Part shown: positions 3,875 to 19,020 of the stretch, piece after piece
Layout: each line of letters begins with the position of its first letter
Position numbering within the stretch: the first letter of the stretch is position 1
Origin: a virus
Length of the DNA stretch: 23,817 bases
IMG/VR virus record: IMGVR_UViG_3300046692_000137
Span: 1-23,817 of that record
Direction: 5' to 3' (one strand)
Translations under genes and position numbers: made by a program
The notes under the pieces: model-generated
Told to the model about the DNA's origin: nothing
Databases searched by the model: none
Seen by the model: only the letters and a program-made list of their open reading frames with translations

Positions 3875-5830
3875 TTAAATAGTTTCGATAATGGCAAAAG
3901 CCGCACCACCGTCGCCGCTGTTTGTCGCGTCCCCGCTCGATGGTGCAGACATAGCTGCGCCACCAGATGCGCCGCCGTAATTAACCGACCCTGAGCCAAT
4001 CACGCCAATGGCGCTGCTGCCCGAGCACGCGACTGCGCCGCTGCCGCCGAGCATGCGGGAAGCCGCGGTTGTGAGCGTACTACTACCTACGACACCGCCC
4101 GATCCGGCTCCGAGGTCTGCCGCGGTTGTGCCGGACGTGCCGCCTTGCGCGGGCTGCCCGGCGCTACCCAAATTTAGAGGGGTAATAACCAAACCAAATA
4201 CAGATGGGGCCGCCAGCCCCGCGCCGACTGCGGTGCTCACCGCGTCAGTTGCGTTTGCCGAAGCAGACGCATAGCCGCCGCCTGAAGAAGCCGCGCGCAC
4301 CGTATTGGCTACGACGTCGCCACTTTTTCCGCCAACCCCTGCGCCACCTGAAGCCGCACAACGATTATTCGTTGTGCTGGTCGCGGTTGCAGAACCAGAC
4401 GGGACAGCCAATCCCCGGTATGGCGATGCGGCGCCACCGGTCGCTGCTGCATTGCCCAAGGCTGAGGTAGCCGTACCCGAGTTTGATCCTGGGATATTGA
4501 TATCTCCACCGGAACCGACGCCTCCGACAGCACCTAACGCTACAGCGTTGCCCGATGTAGCCAAAACGCCAACGCCCGCTTTTCCTCCGCCCGCAACCAC
4601 ATTAACGCCGTTACCTACAAAGGAGGATTGTCCGGCGTTGTTGCCATCCTGAGTTATGCCGCCGCCGCTCAGGGTGCCTACACCGACCCCAAAAGCCCCC
4701 AAGAGAAGCGTGTAAGTATTCCCGGCGATTGCATAGAACGTTTTTATGACAATTGCTCCGCTGGAACCGCCGGACGCAGCAGCGGCCTTGCCCAGATTTC
4801 CTGATGCAAGGCCGCCTGATCCGGCTGCTGCAACGAGCGTGATCTTTGTGGGGCCGGTTACTTTAGCAGTCCACACCTGCGAGCTGAGTAGAAGCTCAAC
4901 ATTATGGAAGCTGGCTGCTGCACTACCGTCGTTACGGCGAACGGTCACCAGGAACTTGGATACGGTGTCGGCCACGATGTCCAGCTCGTCGCCTGGATTA
5001 ATCACGGTCGAGCCACCATGCACGAAGAAGTTGGTGCTGCTGGTAATCGGAAACGTCGATTCGGCTTTCAGTGTGCGCTTGGCGCCGGCCTGCGGCGCGT
5101 TCGGCAATCCGGTGATGGTCGCAGTTTGCGTGATCGGCACGTAGTTACCGCCGGCATTCCAGATATCCGGCGTTGCACTGCTGGCCGGCGCCGTGCCCTT
5201 CAGCTCGTCCAACGCGCCAGTCAGCTGGCCGCCGGCCGTCCCGCCCGGGGCTCCATCTGCGCCGGCCGGTGCGATAACCCAGTCGCTGTACGTTGCGGCC
5301 GGGCCTTGCGTTTTGGTCGTCGTAATCGTCAGTGTGGTGCCCACGTAAGACGCTACGGTACCGAACATGCGCGCGGCCGGCGTGCCGGTGCTGCCGACCT
5401 GCACCAGCTCGCCAGGCGGGAACTGCTTCCCGGCGGGGACGGCGAACACCTTCGTGCCGTTACCCAGCACCACGGCGGTAGCGCTGTTTGCGGTCAGACT
5501 GGTCGAACTCCCCGCGGCAGCCGCCGCGCTGTCAGCAGCGGCTTGCGCGTAGCCACCCGCATCCTGCGCAGCCTGCACGGCGGCCGTCTTGTTGGTCAAG
5601 GCCTGGCCGGCGCTGGTCGTGGCAGACTGAGCACTTGCGTCAGCTGCAGAGGCGAAAGCCTGCACCGCCAGCGCATTCGCATAGACGTTGTCGCTCAGGG
5701 CGTTCATCTGGATACCGAAAGGGCGGAGGTCCGCGACAAACGCATCCGCCTCAGGATCGAAATTGTCCGGATCGTCAATGCTGGGGCCGACGGGAAGTAC
5801 ATCGGCATGGACCGGTGGCGTAACGCTCAT
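3875..5830 (-). CDS. Tail fibre with glycine-rich C-terminal domain
   Basis: A 651-aa virion protein. Residues 1-50 are an acidic start typical of fibre attachment ends (PSIDDPDNFDPEADAF). Residues about 50-110 are an Ala/Gln-rich helical stretch suited to a trimeric coiled coil. A short collagen-like GADGAPGG follows at 190-197, then beta-type repeats to about 330. From about 333 to the end the chain is very rich in Gly, Ser and Ala, ending GDGGAAFAIIETI. This end resembles glycine-rich domains at the tips of phage fibres, which bind host receptors. The ATG at 5830 has an AGAGGA ribosome-binding site. Receptor binding is inferred; the target is unknown. Confidence 0.85.
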   Translation of the reverse strand: MSVTPPVHADVLPVGPSIDDPDNFDPEADAFVADLRPFGIQMNALSDNVYANALAVQAFASAADASAQSATTSAGQALTNKTAAVQAAQDAGGYAQAAADSAAAAAGSSTSLTANSATAVVLGNGTKVFAVPAGKQFPPGELVQVGSTGTPAARMFGTVASYVGTTLTITTTKTQGPAATYSDWVIAPAGADGAPGGTAGGQLTGALDELKGTAPASSATPDIWNAGGNYVPITQTATITGLPNAPQAGAKRTLKAESTFPITSSTNFFVHGGSTVINPGDELDIVADTVSKFLVTVRRNDGSAAASFHNVELLLSSQVWTAKVTGPTKITLVAAAGSGGLASGNLGKAAAASGGSSGAIVIKTFYAIAGNTYTLLLGAFGVGVGTLSGGGITQDGNNAGQSSFVGNGVNVVAGGGKAGVGVLATSGNAVALGAVGGVGSGGDINIPGSNSGTATSALGNAAATGGAASPYRGLAVPSGSATATSTTNNRCAASGGAGVGGKSGDVVANTVRAASSGGGYASASANATDAVSTAVGAGLAAPSVFGLVITPLNLGSAGQPAQGGTSGTTAADLGAGSGGVVGSSTLTTAASRMLGGSGAVACSGSSAIGVIGSGSVNYGGASGGAAMSAPSSGDATNSGDGGAAFAIIETI

Positions 5831-12369: not shown

Positions 12370-13148
12370 TCAATCCTTTTTCTCGTGAACCACGGCGAGC
12401 GCGGCGCCCTCCATCGTCAGGATGTCGTCCTTCCAGTCGTCAAAATCGGACGCGGAAATATCCATGCGATTGAGGTCTTGATATAAAACGTTGTAGTCGA
12501 TCCCGGTCATGCCGCCGGGGCCTTGGCGCCATTGTGTTTGCAGCGAGCAGAAGAGCTGAAAGGCTGCCCAGTTCTCCGGCCAGACTTCGATTTCTCTTGA
12601 TTGGTGTGCTGCGGCGATGTGCGCGAGGAAGGCGTTGCCAGGCTTCGGGCTGTCCTTCGGCTCGTAGAACGCCGCCGCAGCTTCCTTCAGTTTCCCCGAC
12701 GGCCTTCCAGCATCGCTTCACGATACGATTGGATGATCGCGTCGGCCGCTTGCGGCATCTCGTCGATCAGCTGATCGACCGCTTCGCGATCAAACGCGAT
12801 ATCGAGATCCCAGCCGAGTACGCAACCCATGATGTAGGCGGCTTGGTTTTGTGCCTTTTTGTCGTTTTGCTCGGTTTGGGTGGGGCCGAAATCCAGCTTC
12901 GGCGGCTCGACAGTCGCACCGGCTTTAGCGGCTTCTTCGGCGGCCTTGGCGGCGGCCTGAGCGGCGGCGATCATCGCTTCGCCTTCGGCCTTGATTGCAG
13001 CGGTCATGTCGTCAACGAATTTCGCAAATTCTTTGCGGGTACGGTATTGGTATTCCAACTTGACGGTGCCGATGCTGCCGTCCAGCTGTGGAATTTTCAG
13101 CTCCTTGGGTACGGTCTTTGGAGGATTGCCGAGTTTAATCTTTGCCAT
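12370..13148 (-). CDS. Tail assembly chaperone GT fusion made by -1 frameshift
   Basis: The G frame (13148 to 12687) ends in CGG-GGA-AAC-TGA. GGGAAAC (12696 to 12690) is a correct X-XXY-YYZ slippery heptamer in phase, directly before the stop. After a -1 slip, reading continues CTG-AAG-GAA without a stop to the TGA at 12372-12370, giving 153 + 106 = 259 aa. The added part contains EVWPENWAAFQLF and QTQWRQGPGGMTGIDY, typical of the DUF1799 family found just before tape-measure genes. It has no start codon of its own near the overlap. By analogy with lambda G/GT, the two products bind the tape measure and tube protein during tail assembly. It ends 7 bp before the tape-measure ATG. Confidence 0.88.
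12687..13148 (-). CDS. Tail assembly chaperone, G-like (unshifted product)
   Basis: A 153-aa protein starting MAKIKLGNPPKTVPKELKIP. It has a beta-type N-terminal third (about 1-45), then a helical middle with an Ala/Glu/Lys-rich run (about 50-85) and a helical end. Lambda G-type chaperones have comparable length and position, between tube and tape-measure genes. Most ribosomes are expected to stop here, giving an excess of this form over the fusion. The ribosome-binding sequence (GAAAGAAGA) is modest. Only the position, the slippery site and the DUF1799 extension identify it; the sequence alone would not. Confidence 0.88.
   Translation of the reverse strand: MAKIKLGNPPKTVPKELKIPQLDGSIGTVKLEYQYRTRKEFAKFVDDMTAAIKAEGEAMIAAAQAAAKAAEEAAKAGATVEPPKLDFGPTQTEQNDKKAQNQAAYIMGCVLGWDLDIAFDREAVDQLIDEMPQAADAIIQSYREAMLEGRRGN
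12690..12696 (-). other. Programmed -1 frameshift site GGGAAAC
   Basis: In the G frame the codons are CGG-GGA-AAC-TGA, so the heptamer G-GGA-AAC is in the phase needed for tandem slippage. Lambda uses GGGAAAG at the same gene position. The stop codon follows directly. Confidence 0.88.
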
Positions 13149-14870: not shown

Positions 14871-15187
14871 TGAATCACCTCGCACACCAGGTCCATGTAG
14901 GTCCGGCACGTACCTTCCGGCGGCACGGCCAGAATGTTGTAGACGACGGCGTCGTGGACGACCCGCATTCCGGCGTCAATGCCAGCGCGCACGCGAATCC
15001 GGATCGATACCTGAACCGTCGACGTCACGGCGCCGGCACGGATGCGCTCCATGCCGGTGCCGACTTTGATACCGGCCCAGACCTCGCATACCCGCTGCCA
15101 GTCGGTAAGATGGTTGCCCTCTTCGTCGCTTCCCTCTGTTCGCTTCTGGATGGTGACCCGCTTATTCAGCGTCAATGCAAAGCTCAT
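14867..15187 (-). CDS. Head-tail joining protein (Phage_H_T_join family)
   Basis: A 106-aa beta-rich protein: NKRVTIQKRTEGSDEEGN, then W..VCEVWAGIK, RIRAGAV, ISIR-type strands (VSIRIRVRAGI) and a final YNILAVPPE segment. This is the plan of the SPP1 gp16/HK97 gp9-like joining (stopper) proteins, which bind the connector and block DNA leakage before tail attachment. The ATG at 15187 overlaps the stop of the upstream gene (ATGA), and its own stop overlaps the GTG of the next. Confidence 0.88.
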   Translation of the reverse strand: MSFALTLNKRVTIQKRTEGSDEEGNHLTDWQRVCEVWAGIKVGTGMERIRAGAVTSTVQVSIRIRVRAGIDAGMRVVHDAVVYNILAVPPEGTCRTYMDLVCEVIQ

Positions 15188-15786
15188 TGGTAGCTCCGGC
15201 AGCGGTCCAGCAGGCCGTCAACGAACTTCGACTGCACCGTGTCGCGTTCCGTGCGGGTCGCAGGGTCGAACTGCTCGACCAGCTTGGCGAGGACGTACAG
15301 CTGCACCTCTTCCGGCGTCGCTTCTGGCGCGGTGCCGTAGCCAGCCTTGAGCACCACCACCACCGCAGCGTCGTCCTCGGCCGTCGCCGGCCAGCTGCTC
15401 CCGCGCGCCGGCGACAAGGAGCTCGAGTAGCGCGCCCGATTGAGGCGATAATTTTCCGGCGCCAGCAGCTGGCTGTTGCCGGCCTGGTCGATATAGCTGA
15501 CCGAGGTGATGCTTAGCACCGGATGCGGCAGACTGATCTCATCGGCCAGCTGGCGCGCCGCCTGGCCGAGCTGCCAGCGTGGTGCGCAGGGGAAGGCAGG
15601 CAGACGGACCTCCCAAGTCTGCTCCATCAGACATTGGCCAATCTCGTGCTCAAGGTCGCCGACGATGCCCTTGACCCATATCGTAACCAGCGCGTCCATT
15701 TCGTCGCCATCGATGCGCAACGCCGCCTTCGCGGAATCGAGCGTGACGGCCAGCGCGGCCGGTGCAGCGGTTCGGATCTTCGTCAT
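15184..15786 (-). CDS. Head-tail connector, phiE125 gp8 family
   Basis: A 200-aa protein with an N-terminal helical part (SLDSAKAALRID-type: VTLDSAKAALRIDGDEMD at about 14-31). It continues with IGQCLMEQTWEVRLPAFP, then the PHPVLSITSVSYID segment, which is characteristic of the phiE125 gp8 family of uncharacterised phage proteins, related to gp6-type adaptors. Adaptors of this type form a ring under the portal. It follows a 17-codon open frame that overlaps its start, and its stop overlaps the joining-protein gene. Ring formation is known for the gp6 relatives and inferred here. Confidence 0.87.
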   Translation of the reverse strand: MTKIRTAAPAALAVTLDSAKAALRIDGDEMDALVTIWVKGIVGDLEHEIGQCLMEQTWEVRLPAFPCAPRWQLGQAARQLADEISLPHPVLSITSVSYIDQAGNSQLLAPENYRLNRARYSSSLSPARGSSWPATAEDDAAVVVVLKAGYGTAPEATPEEVQLYVLAKLVEQFDPATRTERDTVQSKFVDGLLDRCRSYQ

Positions 15787-15836
15787 ACAAGAGCCCGCTT
15801 TTGACCCGCGACGACGCGGCTGCCGATAGTTTGCAT
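15783..15836 (-). CDS. Possible 17-codon open frame between the head-fibre and connector genes
   Basis: ATG at 15836, stop overlapping the connector start (ATGA at 15786-15783). It encodes MQTIGSRVVAGQKRALV. It fills nearly the whole gap between two genes and shares the coupling overlap seen elsewhere in this operon. It might therefore be a translated coupling peptide or the remnant of a longer gene. The ribosome-binding site is weak and chance cannot be excluded. Confidence 0.25.
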   Translation of the reverse strand: MQTIGSRVVAGQKRALV

Positions 15837-15838
15837 GA

Positions 15839-17548
15839 TCAAGCCAATCCGAATTTGGTCCGGTTGTCGTAGGCGTATTGCGCGATCGCCTCGTGACCAG
15901 GTTCGTTCAAGTGAATGACATCGACCGTGCTGCCGTCCGCCTTTTTGGTGAGGAACTCCGGGCGCATGGTGTTGGTCGTGATGTCAGCAGCGACGATGGC
16001 GCGTGCGTCGAGGACGGCCACGCCAGATGCGGCAAGTTTGTCGCAGTAGGCCTGGACGAGATTAAAACAGGCCATGTCCTGGCCTTGGCCAGCCCACGGG
16101 CGAACAATGATGATCTTCACGTTTCGCGCGGTCGCCATAGCGATCAGTTGCGACGTCCGCGCCAGCGCTGGCGGAACCGAAGCAACACCATCAGGCGCTT
16201 CATTCACGGACCATGGCATCAGCAACAGGTGCGTGATGCCACCGGTCAGCAGGCAGTTGTAAGCGCGATTGTGGAACAAAAGTGACTTGTTGCCGTATTG
16301 ACAAAGCGCGGTGTACGACGCAACGCCGCCACCGTCGATGATCTTCTGCACCAGGCGACGCGCCCAACCGTTGATGGTTCCGCCCCACTGAGGAACTGCG
16401 GTAGTCTGAACCCACCCCTGCATGATCGAATCGCCAGCACCCGCAATCGACTGGCAGAGCTTGCCGCGCAGCTGGAACAGCATGTCATACGAGGGAATGT
16501 TGCTTTGCACCGGCGGCGTACTCGGCGTGCTGCCGGTGTAGTCAGCCGCCCAGTAACCCGCCATATAGTCCGGATCGATTTGAGTCCAAGGATTGGCATT
16601 GCCGTTGTTGGCTTGCGCTACGCCGATGACGGCGGGAGGATTGGTACCCCAGATGCGAGTCATAATCAGCGGGCGGCGGGTAGGGAAGTCCGTGCGTGGC
16701 AGCGATTTGCAGGGAATCCAATCGGTCTGGAGCCGACCCTCGATCAGCGTAAAGTCCGAGTTCTGCCCGGACGTTCCGGTGACAACGCCGGTCGGCGCGC
16801 CGCCGCCGGTATTGCGGAAGTCGGTCAAATCCGTGCTGCCGAACGTGCCGACGATCGGCGCAATGACCGCGCCTGTCGCATCCACCGGGTGGAAGCCGTC
16901 GTTATAAGCGGCCGACGGCGACACACCTACCTTGAAAGCGTTCTCCGGCACCGACGCAGCTCCGGTCAGGACAACTTTGACAGCGTCGTAATGGTCTGGC
17001 GCCTGCCGAAGCTCATGCATGCAAGCGTTGATCGTAGCGTTGCTGACCACGCCGTAGATGCGCTGGTGGGCGATTGTGCTCAACGGTGGCGGCGTCGACG
17101 CCGGCGTTGCAGCAGCGGCCGTCGTAGATACGCTCAGCACTGCGTTAATATTGCCTGCAGTGCAGGTTACAAGATATTTTTGCGAGCCGGTCATTGCGGG
17201 AACATTCGTAACCCCAGCGCCCACAGCGATAGCTGCCCCCACTGGCGCGCTATTTTCATCCAGGCGCTGCACCGTACCAGCTGTCGAAGAAGCACCGGTA
17301 ACCGTGATTGCCAACCCTTCCGGCACGGTCAGCAACGTTTGCTCAAATGGGTTCAGCGAAACAGGGCCGCCACCAGTAAGGGCACGAACAAGAGCGGGGG
17401 CGCTCACTTGCGCGTAGTAGACGGCACCGCCGCTGAGATCAGACGAGGCCATTTTTGCCGAAATCAACCCTGTCTCCGTAGCCGCCGCCAGGGTGACGAT
17501 GGCGTTTGCAGGGTATTTGTCGTAGGCGCACAGCAGGCGGATGGTCAT
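15839..17548 (-). CDS. Putative head fibre/decoration protein with SGNH esterase domain
   Basis: A 569-aa protein. Residues 1-50 (YDKYPANAIVTLAAATETGLISAKM) resemble the N-terminus of phage head-fibre proteins. About 55-150 is Gly/Ala/Thr-rich and beta-like, ending in an Ala/Thr/Pro linker. The C-terminal part has SGNH/GDSL hydrolase blocks: GAGDSIMQGW with nucleophile Ser374, Gly419-Asn420 (QYGNKS), an Asn-bearing block PWSVNE (Asn449), and DVIHLNEPGH with Asp543 and His546. SGNH enzymes remove acyl groups from sugars or lipids. The gene sits among capsid genes, not tail-fibre genes, so the enzyme may be displayed on the head. The substrate is unknown. The start ATG at 17548 has a weak ribosome-binding site, 3 bp after the previous stop. 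Confidence 0.8.
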   Translation of the reverse strand: MTIRLLCAYDKYPANAIVTLAAATETGLISAKMASSDLSGGAVYYAQVSAPALVRALTGGGPVSLNPFEQTLLTVPEGLAITVTGASSTAGTVQRLDENSAPVGAAIAVGAGVTNVPAMTGSQKYLVTCTAGNINAVLSVSTTAAAATPASTPPPLSTIAHQRIYGVVSNATINACMHELRQAPDHYDAVKVVLTGAASVPENAFKVGVSPSAAYNDGFHPVDATGAVIAPIVGTFGSTDLTDFRNTGGGAPTGVVTGTSGQNSDFTLIEGRLQTDWIPCKSLPRTDFPTRRPLIMTRIWGTNPPAVIGVAQANNGNANPWTQIDPDYMAGYWAADYTGSTPSTPPVQSNIPSYDMLFQLRGKLCQSIAGAGDSIMQGWVQTTAVPQWGGTINGWARRLVQKIIDGGGVASYTALCQYGNKSLLFHNRAYNCLLTGGITHLLLMPWSVNEAPDGVASVPPALARTSQLIAMATARNVKIIIVRPWAGQGQDMACFNLVQAYCDKLAASGVAVLDARAIVAADITTNTMRPEFLTKKADGSTVDVIHLNEPGHEAIAQYAYDNRTKFGLA

Positions 17549-17551
17549 AGC

Positions 17552-17749
17552 TTATTCTTTCGCGGTGGATTCAGCGTATTCAACAGCAGCAGGATCGGCG
17601 TCGGCGACCCCGGCTAGCGCTTCGAGCTGAACGGCATCGATCGTCACCACATCATTGCATTTGCCCAAGTCGCAGTCGACCAGCAGGCGAACCTTGATCT
17701 CGCCTTCAAGCGCCGCAGCGGCGCCGGCCTTCGTTTGGCTCTTGCTCAT
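17552..17749 (-). CDS. Small acidic hypothetical protein (65 aa) after the capsid gene
   Basis: Starts at the ATG at 17749 with a GGAGAG ribosome-binding site. The N-terminal third is Ala/Lys-rich, the middle a beta-type strand with two Cys (VRLLVDCDLGKCNDVVTID), and the end acidic and Ala-rich. There is no membrane segment. It lies between the major capsid gene and the head-fibre-like gene, where accessory or decoration proteins are often found. At 65 aa it is small for a capsid decoration protein such as lambda D (110 aa). I do not recognise the family. Confidence 0.75.
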   Translation of the reverse strand: MSKSQTKAGAAAALEGEIKVRLLVDCDLGKCNDVVTIDAVQLEALAGVADADPAAVEYAESTAKE

Positions 17750-17802: not shown

Positions 17803-19020
17803 TTAGGTTGCCGAGTGCTGGTACAGCTTGATGCCGTTGGCATCCAGTAGGTTGCCGCCGGCGCGGGAGAAGGCCAGGAAGCCGACCTGACCTTTAGTGG
17901 CGAACGCCGAGTCATCGAAGCGATACAGCATGATGTCCAGCACGTCGCGGATCATGTAGCGGCTGAAATCGCCAAAGCCGATGGTCTTGGCATTAGCCGC
18001 AGGTTGAGCCATATCGTTGTTGATGGTGACGTCGGCGCCCAGCAGTTGGGCCGGCGTACCGGTCTTAATACCGGCTTCGTAAGATTCCGACCAGATTGGG
18101 CGGCCCGCGCTGTCCTTCATCTTACGAACAACCTTACGAGTCTGCTGGTGCATCATGAAGCGGCAGGTGCCCGCGTCTTGGTATGCCTGGTCGATCGACT
18201 CCTGCAGGTCGACCAGATCTTCGAAGGTCACGGTGACCGTCTGGCCGGTGCCGCCGATCTTGCCGACGCCAGCGGCGGTGACGTAGCCGGTAGGCTGGCC
18301 GGTACCGCTGCCGGTCGTGAATCCCTTGTTCATGGTGCGGCCGAGGCGGTCGCGAATGCGCTTATTCACCATCGCGATAACATCGATCGAACTGTCCATC
18401 AGCAGCTCAATCGGGATCGTGATGATCTTCGAGCTGGCTTTGAAGGTGTTCAGGCCGACCGTGCCGAACGATGGATCGGCGGACGTCGCCCCTACGTTCT
18501 CAGCGACCCACTCACCCTCTTCCGAAGTGCCGTCCGAGCTCGGATAGCCCAGTGGGTTACCTTGCGAGGTGGTGATGCTGGAGACGACGCCGCGCATGCC
18601 GCCGTAGGCTTTCAGCGCGTCGATCAGTTCCTTGGCCACGTCGGTTTGCACGGTGTAGCCGCCTTGCGATGGAGTCGTGGTCGACATGGTGTTGCGGATT
18701 TCGACCAGTTCGTCGCGGCTCAGTGCTTGCGGGCCTTCGCGCAACAGCTTTTCGAACAGAGCACGAGGCTTATTCTCGGCCAGCGCGCCTGGGTTGCGGC
18801 GGAAGTTTTCCACGTCGCGGTTGTGATCTTCGATCTCGATTTTCATCAGCCGCTCGAGGGCAGCGATCTCGGTTTCCAGCGCATCGATCTTGTCGGCGCG
18901 GGCATCGAAGGTCGCTTGGTCGTCTTTCGTCCAGGCGCGGTCGCCTTTCTGCTCCATCTGGTTGCGGGCTTCCTTAGCGAGTTGCTGACGTTCCTCGCGC
19001 AGTGCTTGAATCGATTTCAT
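17803..19020 (-). CDS. HK97-fold major capsid protein
   Basis: A 405-aa protein. Residues 1-105 are a charged coiled-coil region (ALREERQQLAKEARNQ...) that serves as the scaffold-like delta domain and is normally removed by the head protease. The capsid domain follows: TPSQGGYTVQTD, then GEWVAENVGATSADPSFG, IPIELLMDSSIDV, GSGTGQPTGYVT and SRYMIRDVLDIMLYRFDD, all typical of the HK97/phage_capsid family. It builds the icosahedral shell. The ATG at 19020 has an AAAGG ribosome-binding site. A terminator lies 24 bp upstream. Cleavage near residue 105 is inferred from the domain boundary; no exact site can be read. Confidence 0.95.
   Translation of the reverse strand: MKSIQALREERQQLAKEARNQMEQKGDRAWTKDDQATFDARADKIDALETEIAALERLMKIEIEDHNRDVENFRRNPGALAENKPRALFEKLLREGPQALSRDELVEIRNTMSTTTPSQGGYTVQTDVAKELIDALKAYGGMRGVVSSITTSQGNPLGYPSSDGTSEEGEWVAENVGATSADPSFGTVGLNTFKASSKIITIPIELLMDSSIDVIAMVNKRIRDRLGRTMNKGFTTGSGTGQPTGYVTAAGVGKIGGTGQTVTVTFEDLVDLQESIDQAYQDAGTCRFMMHQQTRKVVRKMKDSAGRPIWSESYEAGIKTGTPAQLLGADVTINNDMAQPAANAKTIGFGDFSRYMIRDVLDIMLYRFDDSAFATKGQVGFLAFSRAGGNLLDANGIKLYQHSAT

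Follow-up and report, generated by a model that had tools for sequence, protein, structure and literature searches.

A modular gene in the capsid cluster of a siphophage encodes a candidate head decoration protein carrying an SGNH-type enzyme domain

The 569-aa gene and its place in the head operon

The stretch analysed here (the window) is the 23,817-nucleotide virus record IMGVR_UViG_3300046692_000137, a 23.8-kb siphophage late region coded on the minus strand. In the direction of transcription, the genes follow in the order: terminase/HNH end, portal (PF04860), ClpP-type protease, HK97-type major capsid protein (MCP), a 65-aa ORF, the 569-aa gene which is the subject of this work, gp6-like adaptor, Hc1, gp10-like, gp17-like, tail tube and tail assembly proteins and, at the far end, a 1822-aa ORF placed where the tape-measure gene is expected, followed by genes for a tail-tip protein, a candidate tail fibre and an endolysin. 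The names terminase, tape measure and tail fibre reflect our reading of the ORF list. The 569-aa ORF is intact and flanked by the genes for the MCP (PF05065, phrog_10) and the adaptor (phrog_442), which bears out the position between capsid and connector genes proposed in an earlier note on this DNA. The coordinates of all features are collected in Table 1. A tblastn search of cultured phages and plasmids gave no match to the 569-aa protein at E≤0.01.

The gene is separated by 3 bases from the 65-aa ORF and by 52 bases from the adaptor gene. On its strand, no promoter or terminator that could be its own rises above chance level, and its GC content is flat; the gene shows none of these features by which a moron would stand out. 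This close packing within the head operon, together with an N-terminus at which no signal peptide is visible by eye, argues against a non-virion cargo enzyme made in the cell, which could, for example, alter the acylation of the lysogen's own surface. Seven relatives do belong to phrog_6102 ("lipase"), which is filed under moron and auxiliary genes, and would agree with such a role; we consider it improbable.

The 65-aa ORF is shorter than customary length cut-offs and has no family match. Small ORFs of this kind precede nearly all module A genes (see below) located behind HK97-type MCPs, at a distance of 1–3 bases. By eye, module A and the 65-aa ORF had seemed to be paralogues, which was rejected (hhalign probability 0.7%).

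Downstream of the tail-tip genes lies a gene for a 651-aa glycine-rich protein (3875-5830, minus strand) without a Pfam or PHROG match, which we regard as the candidate tail fibre; the phage thus seems to own a receptor-binding protein separate from the SGNH protein. Ahead of the tape-measure gene, a tail assembly chaperone ORF (12687-13148, minus strand) is overlapped by another minus-strand ORF (12440-12721), the customary layout of a putative programmed frameshift. Beside the lysis genes, a 241-aa plus-strand ORF (1031-1756) starting with MCGR reads like an SRAP/YedK (HMCES-type) protein.

Table 1. Coordinates of the 569-aa gene, its parts and its neighbours in the window
Feature	Coordinates	Strand	Basis
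569-aa modular protein: modules A and B, linker, beta-sandwich, SGNH domain	15839..17548	-	intact ORF, family, context
HK97-type MCP	17803..19020	-	PF05065 E=1.9e-64; phrog_10 E=1e-73
65-aa ORF P0002, between MCP and enzyme gene	17552..17749	-	ends 3 bases before gene
Head-tail adaptor, next gene downstream of 569-aa gene	15184..15786	-	phrog_442 E=5e-16
Module A, residues 1-48	17405..17548	-	relatives' alignments; MCP-type pairing; L005 DNA similarity stops exactly at 17405
Module B, residues 62-140, all-beta; also alone behind P22-type MCPs	17129..17365	-	AF2 pLDDT ~80; HMM matches
Thr/Ala/Pro linker, residues 141-156 (Thr/Ala stretch VSTTAAAATPASTPPPL at about 139-156)	17081..17128	-	sequence
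Beta-sandwich ahead of SGNH domain, residues ~157-360	16469..17080	-	AF2; Foldseek vs two-domain esterases; wider-family conservation
SGNH domain, residues ~361-569	15842..16468	-	PF13472, AF2, Foldseek, PDB profile search
Ser374 codon, predicted nucleophile, block I	16427..16429	-	invariant in 19 rows
Asn449 codon, block III, oxyanion hole	16202..16204	-	invariant in 19 rows
Asp543-His546 codons, block V, DxxH	15911..15922	-	invariant in 19 rows
Exchanged cassette	15824..17143	-	blastn, 88% DNA identity with L001 (unrelated, P22-type MCP)

Anchor modules and enzyme half of the protein

The putative anchor half consists of module A (MTIRLLCAYDKYPANAIV...LSGG), module B and a linker. Neither module belongs to a named family in Pfam, PHROGs or PDB. 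The N-terminus had been described as head-fibre-like, a label that found no support: assignment to a named head-fibre family, phi29-type or other, was rejected for lack of a match in these three resources. In turn, the Thr/Ala linker of the earlier note is real, while module B, the beta-sandwich of the enzyme half and the 65-aa ORF had been overlooked. A full-length AF2 model built on a shallow alignment has a mean pLDDT of 41.6, in which module B alone is usable and module A is of low confidence. As Foldseek matches of module B are weak and spread over different beta folds (CBM_E1, CBM6, STIV A223, a designed beta-helix), we claim no function for it.

With the anchor HMM, 33 genomes were positive among 394 of the Oxalobacteraceae group and one, besides the seed genome, among 399 order-wide genomes, in a sampling centred on the Rugamonas rubra genome of locus L010. 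The two modules occur jointly in the window, while L008 has only A and L001 only B. Related SGNH enzymes are also found on a third type of N-terminus (MTISIPAATISQPV...) in L104 (4638-6452) and L105 (4605-6407), which are outside the counts given below; both genes lie directly behind a 716-aa ORF that, in our reading, resembles a P22-type portal gene.

The active-site motifs of the enzyme half are G372-D373-S374, N449 within WSVNE, and D543-V-I-H546. Ser374, Asn449, Asp543 and His546 are exactly where the earlier note had placed them and, like D373, are invariant in a 19-row alignment of relatives from viral contigs and genomes, the most distant rows of which share 15–21% identity. Block III reads SVNE at N449 rather than GxND, and G419 (YGNKS) aligns to the oxyanion-hole glycine of block II, where several relatives show Ser. 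The Pfam family Lipase_GDSL_2 (PF13472) matches residues 372-554 with E=5e-6; its 27.6 bits fall short of the curated cut-off (32.9 bits), which is a library threshold and no biological feature. Comparison of the window-group profile with the wider family gave an hhalign probability of 98.7% (E=4e-16). Because of this score and the five residues that stay invariant at such distances, we consider the SGNH match to be more than chance.

The AF2 model of residues 151-569, based on the 19 rows (pTM 0.68, mean pLDDT 59.9, with 74–93 over much of the SGNH core), shows a beta-sandwich and, behind it, the strand-helix alternation of the SGNH (alpha/beta/alpha) fold. The earlier note had made its proposal depend on a catalytic triad that forms in a structure model, and this is supported at the fold level only. 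Foldseek searches with the enzyme model against SGNH structures gave E-values down to 3e-11 and TM-scores, normalized by target, of 0.7–0.76 for single-domain members. The best PDB neighbours, aligned across both domains, are a polyvinyl alcohol esterase and the acetyl-xylan esterase PbeAcXE, and the sequence-profile search of PDB also recovers the polyvinyl alcohol esterase (9kr0, E=1e-7). Based on these best matches, the modelled enzyme most likely acts as a polymer or carbohydrate esterase, which would fit the removal of acyl groups from surface polymers.

The succession of a beta-sandwich and an SGNH domain is shared with PbeAcXE (7toh), the polyvinyl alcohol esterase (9kqz), CE2 (2waa) and YxiM (2o14), yet these are cellular proteins without phage anchor modules and are only 13–15% identical to the window protein. 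Moreover, GNSI is the block I signature of the PbeAcXE family (PMC9105624), whereas the 569-aa protein has GDSI; hence, we do not file it in this family of acetyl-xylan esterases.

Gene position, capsid type and cassette exchange among relatives

We surveyed the gene context of 42 related loci and the window (43 loci), typing the upstream genes by PHROG; those of L079, L080 and L052 were also checked one by one, L077 was left without placement and the position of L044 is ambiguous. In 36/43 loci, the nearest large upstream gene encodes the major head protein, 17 of HK97-type (phrog_10) and 19 of P22-type (phrog_283). Module A is accompanied by HK97-type MCPs in 15/15 cases, including the window, L079 and L080, while module B without A is paired with P22-type MCPs in 19/21; the remaining two loci (L052 and L053) possess another N-terminus and a divergent HK97-type MCP. 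For the 33 classified loci, the association of anchor with MCP type gives a Fisher P of 2.6e-7, to be read as a pattern and not as a probability, since these are not independent loci (L066 and L067, for instance, stem from one genome). A gene that stands beside the MCP gene and co-varies with MCP type is what would be expected of a capsid decoration protein, though the counts here are uncorrected for relatedness.

Five loci (L044, L046, L048, L050 and L073) are not located behind an MCP gene: L046 and L048 precede the gene for the terminase small subunit, L073 precedes an HNH gene and L050 follows a DnaB-like helicase gene. In L078, the gene is positioned between the portal and head-protease genes. 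A location between MCP and connector genes would suit equally well a neck or collar fibre (whisker) at the portal-adaptor junction, off the capsid faces, with the enzyme acting near the head-tail joint. We regard such a fibre as unlikely, since the five displaced relatives sit away from connectors and module A tracks the MCP type; the latter argument is a weak one, as the comparison covers MCP types alone.

The enzyme half moves as a DNA cassette between phages of different capsid type. The window enzyme is 95% identical to that of L001, which rides a different anchor, and the shared cassette runs from the linker region to just beyond the stop codon; outside of it, the two sequences have no DNA match but one 90-bp piece. 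The reverse is seen for L005, a prophage that is the same as Rugamonas aquatica L009: it shares 82% DNA identity with the window from 23562 to 17405, that is, over the head genes up to the exact end of module A, loses the similarity over the remainder of the gene and regains it across the adaptor gene (15183-15786). One enzyme on different anchors was also found in the pairs L046/L047 (94% identity over 565 aa) and L069/L104 (82% over 499 aa).

Homologues both with and without the SGNH part, which the earlier note had thought worth seeking, do exist, the same anchors bearing either SGNH or other cargos. Rugamonas rubra ATCC 43154 and R. aquatica FT29W, for example, have prophages in which the anchor is shared and the SGNH-like cargo differs. 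Lipase_GDSL_2 was detected in 18/42 members at E≤0.1, and about two thirds of the members are SGNH-like by our count from motif reading. Further cargos include a GH5-like domain (L078, E=9e-7), a right-handed beta-helix (L058, weak) and Fn3 (L060). In L068 (2380-4791, minus strand), located behind a P22-type coat gene, module B is joined to an FAD-dependent oxidoreductase (PF12831, E=5e-68) and a Golvesin-like C-terminal domain; a redox enzyme in the post-capsid slot is unexpected. Cargos of at least 120 aa form 14 BLAST clusters, with 11 singletons, and some members of the largest cluster are joined by Fn3 stretches. A single in-frame stop codon separates the anchor from a lipase-like part in L050 (4394-6133), and in L075 (2660-4770) and L062 (4482-6607) anchor and cargo are two ORFs overlapping by 4 bases; these split frames represent either decayed copies or a two-gene form of the same design.

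Comparison with known virion proteins and a putative capsid cargo slot

An SGNH domain joined to a structural N-terminal part, as in the window protein, is known from gp63.1 of Escherichia phage G7C and gp66 of Pectobacterium phage Possum, tail-fibre enzymes which O-deacetylate surface polysaccharide (PMC9569702). These two reside on tails, whereas the window gene belongs to the head cluster and its N-terminal part tracks the MCP type. It could still be argued that the 569-aa protein belongs to the tail, as a fibre or tailspike, and that its gene stands in the head cluster by chance: those phage SGNH enzymes whose function is known (Possum gp66, PMC9569702) are borne by tail fibres, cargos as varied as SGNH, beta-helix and GH5-like domains are reminiscent of tail receptor-binding proteins, and the same enzyme type stands among the tail genes of Pseudomonas phage ZQG1. 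Yet, none of the 43 loci examined has the gene in a tail region, it is the anchor and not the enzyme that follows the capsid type, and a separate candidate tail fibre is encoded in the window, past the tape-measure gene. We therefore find a tail location hard to credit; the case of ZQG1 fits the anchor, rather than the enzyme, setting the place in the virion.

The closest precedent that we found for an enzyme in this position is, by analogy, gp33 of Iodobacter phage phiPLPE (L116, NC_011142, 17616-18971), a putative acylhydrolase of similar fold (Foldseek viral rank 3). Like the window gene, its gene follows the major head gene and precedes neck genes. Its neighbours gp34 and gp35 are annotated as virion-confirmed, while gp33 itself carries no such note; phiPLPE is a myophage, in contrast to the siphophage of the window, and has two putative tail-fibre genes near gp33. 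The placement of gp33 hints that the slot may exist beyond Oxalobacteraceae.

Head-located proteins built of modular beta domains include T4 Hoc, T5 pb10, SPP1 gp12, phi29 gp8.5 and the capsid fibres of phage 7-7-1. Capsid decoration proteins and head fibres help in surface binding and, in the passages cited here, are described for binding and not as enzymes (PMC7602432; PMC12796354). Modules A and B have no sequence match in Pfam, PHROGs or PDB. A virion-associated GDSL esterase, P2_42, was detected by mass spectrometry in Vibrio phage Peru-2, where it is abundant and its place is unresolved (PMC13320782, preprint); Peru-2 is a T7-like podophage and the P2_42 gene adjoins the tailspike gene. 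Its authors speculate on an internal location, which would make the window protein, by extension, an internal head protein, packed and ejected to act on the cell envelope at entry. This seems very improbable, given that large multidomain cargos (Fn3, beta-helix, CBM-like parts) suit surface display and that we found no ejection feature. Within the open literature searched, there is no clear description of a capsid-borne SGNH enzyme, and our claim of novelty is limited to that scope.

We hold with moderate confidence that the 569-aa protein is best read as a head decoration protein bearing a swappable polysaccharide O-deacylase. The idea of an SGNH enzyme mounted on the head, put forward in the earlier note, has gained comparative support from the slot shared by 36/43 loci, the pairing of anchor with MCP type and the cassette swaps, and has lost its named head-fibre family; the SGNH residues and model, the separate candidate tail receptor-binding protein and the lack of an own promoter or terminator speak for it as well. 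Against it stand the five off-slot relatives, the ZQG1 tail relative, the sub-cut-off Pfam score, the relatedness of loci within the pairing and the low confidence of the module A model. A capsid-borne deacetylase is plausible since tail-fibre SGNH enzymes deacetylate (Possum, PMC9569702) and decoration proteins help in binding to surfaces (PMC7602432).

As a head decoration protein, it would bind the capsid surface through modules A and B, with the enzyme facing outward. Ser374 would then act together with Asp543/His546 and an oxyanion hole to which Asn449 belongs, taking O-acyl groups, most likely O-acetyl, off the capsule, O-antigen or exopolysaccharide of the host. This could ease the passage of the virion through surface polymers, or its docking on them, ahead of the contact between tail tip and receptor; alternatively, progeny may be kept from sticking to debris. 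Swapping of cargos might let a phage lineage keep pace with the sugar coats of its Oxalobacteraceae hosts as these change.

More tentatively, and at somewhat less than even chances, we propose that Oxalobacteraceae phages own a general capsid cargo slot: a post-MCP gene with a capsid-matched N-terminal anchor and an interchangeable surface-acting C-terminus, such as different SGNH esterases, beta-helix, GH5-like, FAD oxidoreductase or Fn3 domains, which would turn the shell into a multivalent enzyme platform recombining independently of the tail receptor-binding proteins. Phage enzymes acting on surface polymers are usually sought on tails. Should the head form a second platform for enzymes that evolves separately, tail-only searches would miss a class of deacetylases and depolymerases, the enzyme would be strongly multivalent at the copy number of the capsid, and the capsid-type-matched anchor modules would be natural tags for protein display on HK97-type or P22-type shells. 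Our findings suggest that the heads of these viruses, and not the tails alone, may bear enzymes.
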